Part shown: positions 35,212 through 43,460 of the stretch, one piece after another | How the letters are laid out: each line of letters begins with the position of its first letter | Position numbering within the stretch: position 1 is the stretch's first letter | Source of the DNA: Candidatus Edwardsbacteria bacterium | Lineage (GTDB): Bacteria > Edwardsbacteria > AC1 > EtOH8 | Reading direction: 5' to 3' | DNA length: 49,538 nt | Assembly (NCBI GenBank): GCA_018821925.1 | Contig: JAHJLF010000057.1 | Span: forward strand, 1-49,538 | Notes under the pieces: generated by a model | Database searches by the model: none | The model's input: only the letters and a program-made list of their open reading frames with translations | What the model was told of the DNA's origin: nothing | Program-made: the position numbers and the translations under genes

Positions 35212-35901
35212 ATGTCAGAAGATTACATCGATCTGGGTAACAAGCTGGAGAAGCACGGCCATCTGGACCAGGCGCTGAACGCCTTCGAGAACGCCCTGCA
35301 GGCCGAGCCGGACAACGCCGACGCCTGGTTCAGCAAGGGCCGCATCCTCAGCCGGATGGAGAGCTTCGACGAGGCCATCAAAGCCTACGACCAGGCCATC
35401 GCCCTAAGGCCCGATTTTGCCAAGGCCTGGTGCAACAAGGGCATCGTGCTGGGGGTGCTGGATAGCGATCAGGAGGCGGAGGCAGCCCTGGACAAGGCCA
35501 TCAGCCTGGACCCCAAGATGATCGCCGCCTGGTACAACAAGGGCCTGGCGGTGCGCGACCTGGGGCGCTATGATGAAGCCATCAAAATATTCGATCAGGC
35601 CATCAAGCTGGACGCCGAGTTCAACGATGCCTGGTACAGCAAGGGCGTCACTTTGCGCCATATGAAGAAATACGACGAGGCGGTGACCGCCCTGAACAAA
35701 TCCCTGGAGATATACTCCGATGACGCCGACGCCTGGTACGAGCTGGCCCGGGTCCAGCTGTTCAAGGGTGACCTCAATGCTTCGTTGCAGAGCCTGGCCA
35801 AGGCCATCGAGAACGACGATGACTACAAGGAGAATGTGACCCAGGACGAGGATTTCAAATCATTGTGGGAAACCCCAGAGCTGAAGAAGATGCTGGTTTA
35901 G
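35212..35901 (+). CDS. Cytoplasmic TPR-repeat protein
   Basis: This 229-residue protein is made almost wholly of tetratricopeptide repeats of 34 residues. Five to six copies follow one another, with units such as DNADAWFSKGRILSRMESFD and AWYNKGLAVRDLGRYDEAIK. There is no signal peptide or membrane segment, so it acts in the cytoplasm as a binding scaffold. The W-(F/Y)-x-K-G spacing and regular repeats match the TPR consensus very closely, which suggests recent repeat expansion. It is a single gene between guaA and the butyrate kinase block, with a REP-like palindrome after its stop. Confidence 0.88.
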   Translation: MSEDYIDLGNKLEKHGHLDQALNAFENALQAEPDNADAWFSKGRILSRMESFDEAIKAYDQAIALRPDFAKAWCNKGIVLGVLDSDQEAEAALDKAISLDPKMIAAWYNKGLAVRDLGRYDEAIKIFDQAIKLDAEFNDAWYSKGVTLRHMKKYDEAVTALNKSLEIYSDDADAWYELARVQLFKGDLNASLQSLAKAIENDDDYKENVTQDEDFKSLWETPELKKMLV

Positions 35902-35946: not shown

Positions 35947-35996
35947 GCCTGTCATTTAAAGCTGAAAATATACGGTCATTGTTAAGGAGAAAATTT

Positions 35997-37304
35997 ATGG
36001 CCAAGAAAAAGCCGGTCAAGAAAAGACCGATCAAAAAGACCATAGCCAAAAGGAAAAAGGCCGTCATCAAACCGGCCAAGGCCAAGAAACTCCCTGCCAA
36101 AAAGAAAGCCGTCAAGAAACAGCTTAGAGCCAAGGCGGCTCCGCGGAAAAAAACAGGGAAGAAGACAACCATCGCCAAGAAGGCAATAAAAAAATCACCG
36201 GCGGTAAAAAAGGCCCCAAAGTCAGATAAGGCCATCAAAGATTTTCTGATACTGGTGCTCAACCCAGGCTCCACCTCCACCAAGGTGGCGGTCTATCAAG
36301 GTTCAAAACGATTGGTGGCGGAATCCATCGGGCACGATAAATCCCAGGTCGAAAAATACCCCCGTATCGTGGACCAATACCCCATGCGCAAAGCTGTGAT
36401 CCTTGATTTTCTGACCAGAAATAAAATAGCGCTCAAATCGCTTTCGGCGGTAGTGGACCGGGGCGGGGTGTTAAAACCCATATCCTCCGGCACCTATCAT
36501 ATCAACCAGACCATTCTGGACGACCTGAAAGAAGCCAAGCGCGGCGAGCATATCTCCAATGTGGGAGCTTTCATCGCCAAGGAGATCGCCGATGCCGCCG
36601 GCTGTCCGGCTTTTATTGTGGACGCCGTTTCGGTGGACGAATTCTCTCCGCTGGCCCGTATCTCCGGACTGGCCGAGATCGAACGCAAATCATTATTGCA
36701 TGCTTTGAACATGCGGATGGCCGCCCTGCAGGCCTGCCAGGATCTCAATAAAAAATTGCCCGAGGTCAATCTGATCGTGGCCCATCTGGGGGGAGGCATT
36801 TCCATCTCGCCGGTGGATCATGGGAAATTCATAGATGTAAATAATGCCAACGAAGGCGGGCCGTTCTCTCCGGAACGGGCTGGCGGGGTGCCCACCGGGG
36901 CCTTGGTCAAAATGTGTTTCTCCGGCAAATATACCGTTGACGAGATCAAGAAAAAACTTACCCGCAGTGGGGGCCTGTCGGCCTACTTGGGAACCAATAT
37001 GGCCAATGTGGTCAAGGACCGGGTGCTGGCCGGGGACAAGCAGGCCGAGGAGGTTTTTAAGGCCATGGCCTACCAGATCGCCAAGGAGATCGGGGCCTGC
37101 GCCGTGGTGCTTAAAGGCAAGGTGGATGCCATCGTGGTCACCGGCGGGGTGGCCTTCAATAAGATATTCACCGACTGGATAAAGGAACGGGTATCTTTCA
37201 TCAGCCCCAAGGTTCTGATCTACCCCGGCGAGGACGAAATGCCGGCCCTGGCGGCCGGGGCGTTAAGGGTTCTAAAGAGAGAGGAAAAAGCCAGGGAATA
37301 TTAA
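35997..37304 (+). CDS. buk: Butyrate kinase with lysine-rich N-terminal tail
   Basis: This 435-residue protein has two parts. Residues 1-82 are a lysine-, alanine- and proline-rich tail (32 lysines in the first 80 residues, with repeated KKAxKK patterns) like histone H1 or AlgP tails. From residue 83 it is an acetokinase-family butyrate kinase, with ILVLNPGSTSTKVAVY, VVDRGGVLKPISSGTYHIN, VAHLGGGISISPVDHGK, the SPERAGGVPTGALVKMCFSGKY stretch and YPGEDEMPALA. The kinase makes ATP and butyrate or branched-chain acids from acyl phosphate. ATG 35997 is set by AAGGAG seven bases before it, and no other start codon lies between tail and kinase, so the fusion is real in this sequence. All catalytic motifs are present. 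Confidence 0.9.
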   Translation: MAKKKPVKKRPIKKTIAKRKKAVIKPAKAKKLPAKKKAVKKQLRAKAAPRKKTGKKTTIAKKAIKKSPAVKKAPKSDKAIKDFLILVLNPGSTSTKVAVYQGSKRLVAESIGHDKSQVEKYPRIVDQYPMRKAVILDFLTRNKIALKSLSAVVDRGGVLKPISSGTYHINQTILDDLKEAKRGEHISNVGAFIAKEIADAAGCPAFIVDAVSVDEFSPLARISGLAEIERKSLLHALNMRMAALQACQDLNKKLPEVNLIVAHLGGGISISPVDHGKFIDVNNANEGGPFSPERAGGVPTGALVKMCFSGKYTVDEIKKKLTRSGGLSAYLGTNMANVVKDRVLAGDKQAEEVFKAMAYQIAKEIGACAVVLKGKVDAIVVTGGVAFNKIFTDWIKERVSFISPKVLIYPGEDEMPALAAGALRVLKREEKAREY

Positions 37305-37782: not shown

Positions 37783-37830
37783 TTGCTAAAAAACAAAAAT
37801 AAAATATAAAATATTCCAGAGGAACCGTCA

Positions 37831-37877
37831 TTGTCCTTTAAAGTTCTGGCCATCAATCCCGGCTCGACCTCGACCAA
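37831..37877 (+). pseudogene. 5' fragment of a butyrate kinase gene
   Basis: A TTG with an AGAGGAA ribosome binding site starts SFKVLAINPGSTSTN, the opening of a butyrate kinase; the frame then runs into unrelated AT-rich sequence and stops at 37894. The 47 bases differ from the start of buk at 38357 at four positions by my count. This is the remnant of a gene cut off where the hicBA segment begins. Confidence 0.85.
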
Positions 37878-37897: not shown

Positions 37898-38134
37898 ATG
37901 AAATTAAAAATCATCATCACATACGAAGACGGCTGGTACATCTCCAGTTGTCCCAACCTTCCAGGCTGTCATTCACAGGGGCGAACGACAAAAGAAGCCT
38001 TTGCGAACATTGAGGATGCCATAAAGGGATACATTGCAAGTTATGTCAAACACAAAGAGCCCTTGCCGGTGCAGCCCTTTATCGAAAAGCAGATTGAGGT
38101 TAAATATGACAGTATTTCCGCTAGTATCCGGTAG
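37898..38134 (+). CDS. hicB: HicB-family antitoxin
   Basis: This 78-residue protein is a HicB-type antitoxin with a degenerate RNase H-like fold: KLKIIITYEDGWYISSCPNLPGCHSQGRTTKEAFANIEDAI matches the family's EDGGYVASVPELPGCHSQG pattern. The C-terminal DNA-binding part is short or missing, as in many HicB proteins that only block the toxin. It comes before hicA and overlaps it by 29 bases, an antitoxin-first order found in many type II systems. The pair sits between a buk fragment and the buk gene at 38357. Confidence 0.9.
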   Translation: MKLKIIITYEDGWYISSCPNLPGCHSQGRTTKEAFANIEDAIKGYIASYVKHKEPLPVQPFIEKQIEVKYDSISASIR

Positions 38135-38330
38135 AAAACTGGTCAAAGCTCTGCGCAGAATAGGATATAATATTGACCACCAATCCGGCAGTCATATTAT
38201 TCTTCGGCATATAGATCCGCCTCATCGCCGCCTAACGATTCCAAATCATAATGAAATCGCCAAAGGGACGATGAAAAGCATTCTTCGTGATGCCGGTATA
38301 AGCATTGAAGAAATCAAAAAACTTCTATAG
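38106..38330 (+). CDS. hicA: HicA-family mRNA interferase toxin
   Basis: HicA is a small dsRNA-binding-fold ribonuclease that cuts mRNA when not held by HicB. The 74-residue frame from ATG 38106 reads SGRKLVKALRRIGY, then QSGSHIILRH with the catalytic histidine H30 in the GSH motif, then LTIPNHNEIAKGTMKSILRDAGI, a near-complete match to the YcfA/HicA family. The start lies inside hicB, so translation is coupled. A longer frame from 38034 has no family match in its extra residues. The gene ends 26 bases before the start of buk at 38357. Confidence 0.92.
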   Translation: MTVFPLVSGRKLVKALRRIGYNIDHQSGSHIILRHIDPPHRRLTIPNHNEIAKGTMKSILRDAGISIEEIKKLL

Positions 38331-38332
38331 TA

Positions 38333-38342
38333 AATAAAAATC
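38333..38342 (+). repeat. Direct repeat, right copy (AATAAAAATC)
   Basis: This is the second copy of the ten-base repeat, directly before the TGGAGGA ribosome binding site of buk at 38357. The two copies bracket hicBA exactly. Confidence 0.6.
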
Positions 38343-38356
38343 TGGAGGATCCACCT

Positions 38357-39352
38357 GTGCCCTTTAAAGTTCTGGCCATCAACCCCGGATCGACCTCGAC
38401 CAAGATAGCGGTCTTTGAGGACGATAAGCCGACATTCAAGCAGACCCTGAGCCATTCGGCCGAGGAGCTGGCCCCCTTCAAGCGCATCACCGACCAGTTC
38501 GATTTCCGCAAGAAGGCCATCGAGGATGTGCTGAATAAGGCTGGCATCAATGTCAAAGAACTCAATGCTGTCATCGGGCGGGGCGGGCTGTTCAAGCCCA
38601 TCCCCTCGGGCACCTATGCCGTCAGCCAGGCTATGAAGGATTACGTCCTGGCCGGGACCGGCGGCGACCATGCCTCCAACCTGGGCTGCCTGATCGCCGA
38701 CGACATCGCCCGCGACGTCGGGGTCAAGGCCTACATCGTGGACCCGGTGGTGGTGGACGAAATGGGGTCCCTGGCCCGCTATTCCGGCCTGCCGGAGCTG
38801 CCCCGGGTCAGCATCTTCCACGCCCTCAACCAGAAGGCGGTGGCCCATCGGGCGGCCAGGGAGATGGGAAAAAAGTACGCAGAGCTTAATTTGATTATGG
38901 TGCACCTGGGCGGTGGCATCTCCATTGGCATCCATGAAAAAGGCAAGGTGGTGGACGTCAACAACGCCCTGAACGGCGACGGGCCGTTCGCCCCGGAGCG
39001 TTCCGGAGGTTTGCCCACCGGCGACCTGGTGAAGATGTGCTTCTCCGGCAAATACACCCAGGCCGAAATGATGAAAAAACTGGCCGGCAAAGGGGGCTGT
39101 GTTTCACATCTGGGCACCAACGACGGAAGGGAAATGGAGAAGAGAGTCAAGGAAGGCGATGCCAAGACCACGTTGATCATCCAGGCCATGGCCTACCAGG
39201 TTTCCAAGTGCATCGGAGAGATGGCCACGGTGGTGAACGGCAAGGTGGACGCGATTGTTCTGACCGGCAGTTTCGCCTACTTCCCGGAATTCATAGATTG
39301 GATCAAGGAACGGGTGGGCTGGATCGCGAAGGTGCTGGTATACCCCGGCTAG
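38357..39352 (+). CDS. buk: Butyrate kinase, ended early by an amber codon
   Basis: This second butyrate kinase starts at GTG 38357, seven bases after TGGAGGA, and lacks a lysine-rich tail. Motifs are LAINPGSTSTKIAVFE, AVIGRGGLFKPIPSGTYAVS, MVHLGGGISIGIHEKGK and APERSGGLPTGDLVKMCFSGKY. Translation stops at TAG 39350-39352, codon 332, right after VLVYPG. The same frame continues with DEMTALAEAGMRILKGEEQ to TGA at 39425-39427, which matches the YPGEDEMPALAAGALRVLK end of the other kinase. The stop thus replaces a conserved glutamate codon, a single G-to-T change. The protein loses about 24 residues and may be inactive; sequencing error or strain variation is possible. Confidence 0.85.
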   Translation: MPFKVLAINPGSTSTKIAVFEDDKPTFKQTLSHSAEELAPFKRITDQFDFRKKAIEDVLNKAGINVKELNAVIGRGGLFKPIPSGTYAVSQAMKDYVLAGTGGDHASNLGCLIADDIARDVGVKAYIVDPVVVDEMGSLARYSGLPELPRVSIFHALNQKAVAHRAAREMGKKYAELNLIMVHLGGGISIGIHEKGKVVDVNNALNGDGPFAPERSGGLPTGDLVKMCFSGKYTQAEMMKKLAGKGGCVSHLGTNDGREMEKRVKEGDAKTTLIIQAMAYQVSKCIGEMATVVNGKVDAIVLTGSFAYFPEFIDWIKERVGWIAKVLVYPG

Positions 39353-40677: not shown

Positions 40678-41574
40678 ATGATCAAATCATTTTCCGACCT
40701 GATGAAACAGGCCAAGGCCAGCGGACCCAAGAAGGTGGCAGTGGCGGTGGCCCAGGACGAGGTGGTGCTGGAGGCATTAAGCGAAGCGGCCGCCGAGAAG
40801 ATTGCCACCCCAATATTGTTCGGCGACAAGACCGCCATCGAAGATGCCGCAAAAAAGGCCAAGGTGGACATCAAGGGCTGGGAGATAAACGACATCAAGG
40901 ATATGGCCGAAGCCAGCAAAGCAGCGGTGGCAGCGGTCTCCAGCGGCAAGGCCGATTTTTTGATGAAGGGCTTGGTGGCCACCTCAATATTCCTGAAAGC
41001 GGTGCTCGACAAGGAGATCGGCCTGCGCACCGGGCGGCTGTTGTCGCACGTAGCGGTAATGGAGATGAAGCTTTATCCCAAATTGTTCCTGCTGACCGAC
41101 GGCGGGATGAACGTCAAGCCCGACCTGATGGCCAAGGTGGACATCATCAACAATGCGGTTGGGATCTCCCGCAAGCTGGGGGTGGAGAACCCCAAGGTGG
41201 CGGTGCTGACCGCCCTGGAGACGGTCAACTCCAACATGCCGGAGACCATAGACGCCGCGCATCTGGCCAAGATGAACGATCGGGGGCAGATCAAGGGCTG
41301 CCTGGTGGACGGGCCGCTGGCCCTGGACCTGGCGGTGTCGGCCGAGGCCGCCGCCCATAAGAAGGTCAAGAGCTTGGTGGCCGGGGATGCCGACATCTTC
41401 TTGGCGCCGGAGATCGCGGCCGGCAATATGCTGGCCAAGGGCCTGATCTACCTGGGCGGGGCCCAGGCCGCCGGGCTGATCGCCGGGGCGGCCCGGCCGG
41501 TGGTGATGCTGTCCCGCTCCGATTCCAAACAGCAGAAGCTGAACTCCATCGCCCTGGGAGTGGTCAGCTGCTGA
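40678..41574 (+). CDS. ptb: Phosphate butyryltransferase (first copy)
   Basis: This 298-residue enzyme exchanges the CoA of butyryl- or branched acyl-CoA for phosphate and so feeds butyrate kinase for ATP formation. It has the Ptb/Pta family motifs: FLMKGLVATSIFLKAVLD, LSHVAVMEM, LFLLTDGGMNVKPDL, the INNAVGISRKLG helix, RGQIKGCLVDGPLALD and RPVVMLSRSDS. A CAGGAAAG ribosome binding site lies upstream. The stop shares one base with the start of the PAS-GGDEF gene. A second ptb gene follows that one. Whether the substrate is butyryl-, isobutyryl- or isovaleryl-CoA is unclear. Confidence 0.92.
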   Translation: MIKSFSDLMKQAKASGPKKVAVAVAQDEVVLEALSEAAAEKIATPILFGDKTAIEDAAKKAKVDIKGWEINDIKDMAEASKAAVAAVSSGKADFLMKGLVATSIFLKAVLDKEIGLRTGRLLSHVAVMEMKLYPKLFLLTDGGMNVKPDLMAKVDIINNAVGISRKLGVENPKVAVLTALETVNSNMPETIDAAHLAKMNDRGQIKGCLVDGPLALDLAVSAEAAAHKKVKSLVAGDADIFLAPEIAAGNMLAKGLIYLGGAQAAGLIAGAARPVVMLSRSDSKQQKLNSIALGVVSC

Positions 41575-42554: not shown

Positions 42555-43460
42555 GTGACACAAGTGACATCATTGAAGCAGATGGCGGAACTGGTAAAAG
42601 GCGGACCCTTGAAGAAAGTGGCGGTGGCCTGCGGGCAGGATCCGGACATCATCGGGGCCCTGGCCCGGGCGGTCAACGAGAAGCTGGCCCAGGCCATCCT
42701 GATCGGCGACCAGAAGAAGACCGAGGCCCTGGCCCAGGAAAATAATATCGATCCCAAGATATTCACCCTGATAAACGAGACCGATCCTAAAAAAGCCGCA
42801 GCCAAAGCGGTGGAGATGGTCAAAAATGGCGAGGCCGACGTGCTGATGAAAGGCCTGATAGACACCGCGATCTACGCCCGGGCCTACCTGAACAAGGAGA
42901 GCGGCCTGATCAACAGCGCCACGGTCTCCCATGTGGCGGTGTTCGAGGTCCCCAACTATCCCCGCCTGCTGATAGTCACCGACGCCGCCCAGATACCCTA
43001 TCCTGATTTCGGCCAGAAGGTGGACATGATCAAACACGCCGTGGCGGTGGCCCAAAAATTGGGCATCGAGACCCCCAAGGTGGCGGTGCTGGCGGCGGTG
43101 GAGAAGGTCAATCCCAAGATGCCCTGCACCCTGGAGGCGGCCCAACTGGCCAAGATGGCCGACCGCGGGCAGATCAAGGGCTGCATAGTGGACGGCCCGC
43201 TGTCGATGGACGCGGCGGTCAGCCCGGAGTGCGCCGCCGGCAAGGGCATCAAATCCCCGGTGGCCGGCTATGCCGATATCCTGGTATGCCCGGACATCCA
43301 CTCCGGCAACATACTGTACAAGACCCTGACCCAGCTGGCCAGGGCCGAGTTGGCGGCCATAGTGCTCGGCACCAGCGCCCCGGTGGTGCTGACCTCGCGC
43401 ACCGATTCCGACGATACTAAGTTCATGTCGATAGTACTTTCGGTCCTGATGGCTAAGTAA
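42555..43460 (+). CDS. ptb: Phosphate butyryltransferase (second copy)
   Basis: This 301-residue enzyme is a paralogue of the one at 40678. It has VLMKGLIDTAIYARAYLN, VSHVAVFEVPNYPRLL, IKHAVAVAQKLGIETPKVAV and RGQIKGCIVDGPLSMD, so the Ptb family motifs are complete. The start is a GTG eight bases after AGGAG (42542-42546). Differences from the first copy, such as IVTDAAQIPYPDFGQKVD where the first has LLTDGGMNVKPD, suggest a different acyl preference. It is the last gene of the ptb-PAS-GGDEF-ptb unit, with a hairpin over its stop codon. Confidence 0.93.
   Translation: MTQVTSLKQMAELVKGGPLKKVAVACGQDPDIIGALARAVNEKLAQAILIGDQKKTEALAQENNIDPKIFTLINETDPKKAAAKAVEMVKNGEADVLMKGLIDTAIYARAYLNKESGLINSATVSHVAVFEVPNYPRLLIVTDAAQIPYPDFGQKVDMIKHAVAVAQKLGIETPKVAVLAAVEKVNPKMPCTLEAAQLAKMADRGQIKGCIVDGPLSMDAAVSPECAAGKGIKSPVAGYADILVCPDIHSGNILYKTLTQLARAELAAIVLGTSAPVVLTSRTDSDDTKFMSIVLSVLMAK

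Follow-up and report, generated by a model that had tools for sequence, protein, structure and literature searches.

A lysine-rich, histone H1-like N-terminal tail on a butyrate kinase of Candidatus Edwardsbacteria

The question raised by this locus is whether a butyrate kinase is truly made with a lysine-rich tail resembling those of histone H1 and, if so, what such a tail might do for a metabolic enzyme. The gene (35997-37304) lies in a window of 49,538 nucleotides, meaning the whole stretch of DNA that was analysed, which is contig 57 of a 2.44-Mb draft genome that is 99% complete. The named relatives of the kinase belong to Candidatus Edwardsbacteria/UBP2.

A complete kinase behind a disordered tail

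The reading frame translates to 435 amino acids, comprising the tail (residues 1-82) and a complete butyrate kinase. Its features are as follows:

35983-35988, + strand: Shine-Dalgarno sequence AAGGAG for the tail-first ATG (from the sequence; orthologues have a similar purine-rich Shine-Dalgarno sequence at their tail-first ATG)
35997-36242, + strand: lysine-rich, H1-like N-terminal tail (from composition, predicted disorder and sub-threshold matches to HC2, PF07382, and NF038053)
36243-37301, + strand: butyrate kinase domain, residues 83-435 (TIGR02707, 476 bits; 1saz/1x9j, E 1e-101)
36255-36257, + strand: in-frame GTG, codon 87, the only near-cognate start codon beyond the tail (without a Shine-Dalgarno sequence; inside beta strand 1)

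Residues 85-433 match TIGR02707 at positions 2-350 of the 351 in the model (476.4 bits vs. an equivalog cut-off of 289.1). Likeness to Thermotoga maritima Buk2 (PDB 1saz/1x9j) extends over the whole catalytic domain (353 residues) with its motifs kept, but the known protein is tailless, its chain beginning with the first beta strand. Residues N89, R155, H185, D209, R294, and E414, which we take to be the ASKHA catalytic residues as mapped from acetate kinase, are identical in the aligned T. maritima Buk2 and invariant in 10 orthologues. Judged by its sequence, this is an ordinary butyrate (short-chain acyl) kinase, and it shares its ptb-buk locus with a second paralogue.

The tail contains 33 lysines (40%), 4 arginines, and 2 acidic residues, giving a net charge of +35, with alanine at 18% and proline at 9%; when the whole window was compared, the next lysine-richest open stretch of 80 residues held 17 lysines. 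These counts bear out a preliminary description of the DNA, which had put lysine at about 40% of the first 80 residues, and its likening of the composition to histone H1 is well supported by analogy with known tails and by selection on the charge, which is kept in 10 of 10 family genomes. The features of PhaF-, AlgP-, and HupB-type tails (disorder, richness in K, A, and P, high net charge, few acidic residues) are all present. On the other hand, HC2 (PF07382) gave 21 bits (E 0.0004) against a family cut-off of 40 bits and NF038053 gave 20.8 bits against a cut-off of 80. Because these curated H1-like cut-offs were not reached, we regard the tail as one that would work like H1-like tails and do not file it as a member of either family. 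The weak match to chlamydial Hc2 stems from the composition of the tail, and Hc2 itself differs in being a free-standing chromatin protein. Mean confidence of an AlphaFold2 model was moderate (64), and therefore only its division into order and disorder was used. With a pLDDT of about 31-46 in residues 1-80 and a first beta strand at residues 84-90, the tail is predicted to be intrinsically disordered, and neither a helix nor an amphipathic or lipid-binding element is predicted within it.

Conservation, start site, and origin of the tail

Whether orthologues keep the tail had been set beforehand as a refuting test, and a tailed, syntenic orthologue was found in all 10 genomes of the family set (Candidatus Edwardsbacteria/UBP2, four genera). 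Their tails span 62-113 residues, carry a net charge of +25 to +36, and include 1-4 acidic residues. Combined lysine and arginine stays at 35-45% while GC content of the tail ranges from 0.44 to 0.69, lysine being partly swapped for arginine in the GC-rich genomes. Across genera the tail sequence drifts fast and barely aligns; within the genus, dN/dS is 0.28-0.58 in the tail and 0.07-0.13 in the kinase. In neutral simulations started from the tail, no more than 0.4% of runs retained its composition at 0.5 substitutions/site, including when stops were purged, and 0 of 1000 did so at 1 or more substitutions/site, ruling out neutral A-rich drift. Since charge is maintained across GC content, dN/dS is below 1, and simulated drift loses the composition, the tail is very probably translated and retained for its charge.

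The same data bear on the start of translation. An in-frame GTG at codon 87 offers an opening for a start-site artefact, in which translation would begin within the kinase and the tail would be an untranslated A-rich leader; the preliminary description had overlooked this codon in stating that no start lies between tail and kinase. The GTG is nonetheless an unlikely start, as it has no Shine-Dalgarno sequence, would cut into the first beta strand, and does not occur at the same place in all relatives. The tail-first ATG, in contrast, lies ~8 nt 3′ of the end of AAGGAG, in agreement with the earlier view that the ribosome binding site places the ATG ahead of the tail, and orthologues likewise have a Shine-Dalgarno sequence and an ATG ahead of their tails. 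Together with tails that are stop-free in 10 of 10 genomes, a dN/dS below 1, and charge that is maintained even at a tail GC content of 0.69, these features leave an error in the start site with next to no probability, and we consider it ruled out.

A wider sample of 386 genomes yielded strong butyrate kinase matches in 80, 70 of them outside the family. No lysine-rich tail was seen outside the family at the roughly 30 loci where N-termini were read; the rest of these 70 genomes were judged by alignment start alone, and their alignments begin near the kinase. In a tree of the kinases, the tailed copies form one clade (support 100/100) and the untailed Edwardsbacteria paralogues (buk2) another. 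One row of this tree (L089_G007) is a wrong-frame match and was ignored, and the row of the tailed kinase of G004 was marked "no" by the script's threshold, yet the tail is present. Because the tailed copies are a single clade, the simplest reading is that the tail was gained once, before the family radiated. Several hundred in-frame, phosphotransacylase-like residues precede the butyrate kinase in some unrelated genomes (L156, L159, L157, and L163), perhaps representing ptb-buk fusions.

The locus and other tailed proteins

Further genes of the locus are as follows:

35212-35901, + strand: TPR-repeat protein directly upstream of the tailed buk (syntenic in all family genomes)
38357-39352, + strand: untailed paralogue buk2, ended by a TAG at 39350-39352 (sequence, profile match)
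40678-41574, + strand: phosphate butyryltransferase, ptb, of the same syntenic block (NF004472)
42555-43460, + strand: second phosphotransacylase of the PTA/PTB family (PF01515)

The order purH, HEAT, guaA, TPR, tailed buk, SpoIIAA-like gene, buk2, ptb, and GGDEF is preserved up to the contig ends, with some small genes gained and lost among family genomes. Within this block the tail is confined to one paralogue, and the adjoining buk2 is without it. The TAG that ends buk2 is in frame and interrupts the conserved YPG(E)DEM motif near the C-terminal end; intact copies occur in relatives, and the codon is either a real mutation or an assembly error. In addition, the buk2 start is present as a 78-nt direct repeat (37800-37877 and 38326-38403, 79% identity) on either side of a hicBA toxin-antitoxin pair (37898-38330), an arrangement that would result had hicBA inserted at the 5′ end of buk2 and duplicated that end. 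In G001 and G002, the SpoIIAA-like gene is followed directly by buk2.

When the tail was used as a protein query against its own genome, it matched itself alone, so tailed proteins were sought with DNA patterns for runs of Lys-Lys pairs across the genome. These patterns miss arginine-rich or sparser tails, and the resulting list is therefore a lower bound. It includes an aldehyde:ferredoxin-oxidoreductase-like protein with a C-terminal lysine-rich tail of ~115 residues (G000:C19:32904-35465; L091:12901-15465), which is found in 4 of 4 genomes of the genus, is weaker in G005, and is absent from three g4 genomes and G007. A polyprenyl diphosphate synthase has an N-terminal lysine-rich tail of ~60 residues (G000:C90:25074-26345; L092:10071-11345) that is shared by the genus and two g4 genomes, and the large subunit of methylmalonyl-CoA mutase has one of ~40 residues, likewise N-terminal (G000:C69:35313-37094; L093). 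A relative, G009, carries C-terminal lysine-rich tails on PPDK and on an enzyme of the aconitase/isopropylmalate dehydratase family (L152:1800-4001 and L155:1671-3074). Basic stretches are also present in ribosomal proteins L17 and S20 and in IF2, where they are ordinary. Among these tailed enzymes, only butyrate kinase was found tailed in every family genome. Two genera also have a very small lysine-rich ORF ending in MACAKKxAKKVVKKAVKKV..KKK (L148:1936-2112 and L149:1975-2124), possibly a free-standing H1-like micropeptide.

Possible roles of the tail

Known tails of this kind suggest, with a probability that we put at about 0.5, that the tail tethers the kinase electrostatically to nucleic acid. 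According to this proposal, a disordered polycationic tail became joined to butyrate kinase, most simply in one event before the family radiation, and its closely spaced lysines would bind polyanions independently of sequence, most likely DNA and/or RNA. Binding would keep the kinase on the nucleoid or polysomes, whereas the untailed paralogue would stay soluble, and the purpose might be the placing of ATP/acyl-phosphate turnover or co-placement with other tailed enzymes. A polyanion-binding role is well supported by analogy and by the selection on charge; from the analogy we further infer that the ligand is nucleic acid and that binding localises the enzyme, in which case the tail would link acyl-phosphate metabolism to the nucleoid. 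The recurrence of H1-like tails on other enzymes of the genome and its relatives lends support to the tether.

Several characterized systems provide the basis for this analogy. The lysine-rich AKKA/PAKKA tails of mycobacterial HupB and HbhA mediate sequence-independent DNA binding, although the motif search in M. tuberculosis that found them also picked up RplV, which is lysine-rich and did not bind DNA (PMC10665949). HupB and HbhA are nucleoid proteins, not metabolic enzymes, and their tails are C-terminal. In Pseudomonas, the disordered Lys/Ala/Pro-rich, H1-like tails of PhaF and AlgP are attached to another domain and have been linked to DNA binding and the placement of granules (PMC9239181), but they are C-terminal, consist of KPAA repeats, and have as partner a phasin or helical domain rather than an enzyme; we claim no homology. 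The PHA synthase PhaC2 of Cobetia and Halomonas is itself an enzyme of metabolism, and its long, disordered, basic HC2-like tail was proposed in Cobetia to anchor it to the nucleoid (PMC8686332). It is a different enzyme, its extension is C-terminal and 380 residues long, and binding is a proposal in both cases.

The charge of the tail might instead serve another polyanion, tethering the kinase to polyphosphate granules or to acidic phospholipids of the inner membrane, and this we consider rather unlikely. AlgP, with its H1-like tail, is located on polyphosphate granules (PMC9239181), the disordered lysine-rich N-terminus of E. coli YihI binds polyphosphate (PMC12345225), and one of the other tailed enzymes is a polyprenyl synthase, whose products are bound for the membrane. 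Yet a search confined to PPK1 (PF02503), positive in 7 of 14 known genomes used as a control, found it in 0 of 10 family genomes, making polyphosphate less likely as a ligand, and a membrane role is disfavored by the lack of any predicted amphipathic or lipid-binding element. Thus, where the preliminary description proposed a probable nucleic-acid- or polyphosphate-binding tail, the polyanion-binding role stands and the polyphosphate part is weakened; acidic membrane or PPK2-made polyphosphate may still be alternative ligands. We also think it unlikely that the tail is a general accessory for solubility or assembly with no nucleic-acid role, acting as an entropic bristle or docking on a single acidic partner (the TPR protein encoded upstream, for example). 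It is consistent with such a function that charge, length range, and disorder are conserved where sequence is not, that unrelated enzymes bear similar tails, and that the TPR gene adjoins in every genome. However, a bristle would accept acidic or neutral residues, and acidic ones are nearly absent in all ten tails; moreover, buk2 of the same locus does without a tail.

N-terminal extensions of enzymes are known to direct cargo to microcompartments, and the tail could conceivably be what directs the kinase into a microcompartment or encapsulin. The tailed polyprenyl synthase does resemble a family-2 encapsulin cargo model, but below the cut-off (219 bits vs. 450), and the tail of the kinase lacks a predicted helix. 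A BMC shell gene (PF00936) occurs in a single family member, G007 (L168; G007:C58:2966-3193), and is absent from the source genome and 8 other family genomes, in a search that covered BMC shells only. Lacking a shell gene in the source genome, microcompartment targeting is disfavored, and encapsulation as a whole appears very improbable. A bolder extension of the nucleic-acid tether, which we regard as improbable and speculative, is that the tail acts as an acyl-phosphate-sensing switch. Butyryl-phosphate from the active site would acylate nearby lysines chemically and neutralise them, which would free the kinase from its nucleic acid. The strength of the tether would then report the level of acyl-phosphate, and this lineage would have a single polyanion-organised metabolic assembly that also takes in the other tailed enzymes.

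The kinase family and the kind of tail are each known, and the literature searched contained no report of the two together. Known bacterial H1-like tails occur on nucleoid and granule proteins, whereas here one is present on a fermentation kinase across a whole family, with the adjacent untailed buk2 as a natural control and with similar tails on several other enzymes of central metabolism in the lineage. If the tail does tether its kinase, this would be evidence that bulk charge is used by some bacteria to station ordinary metabolic enzymes on the nucleoid or on polysomes.
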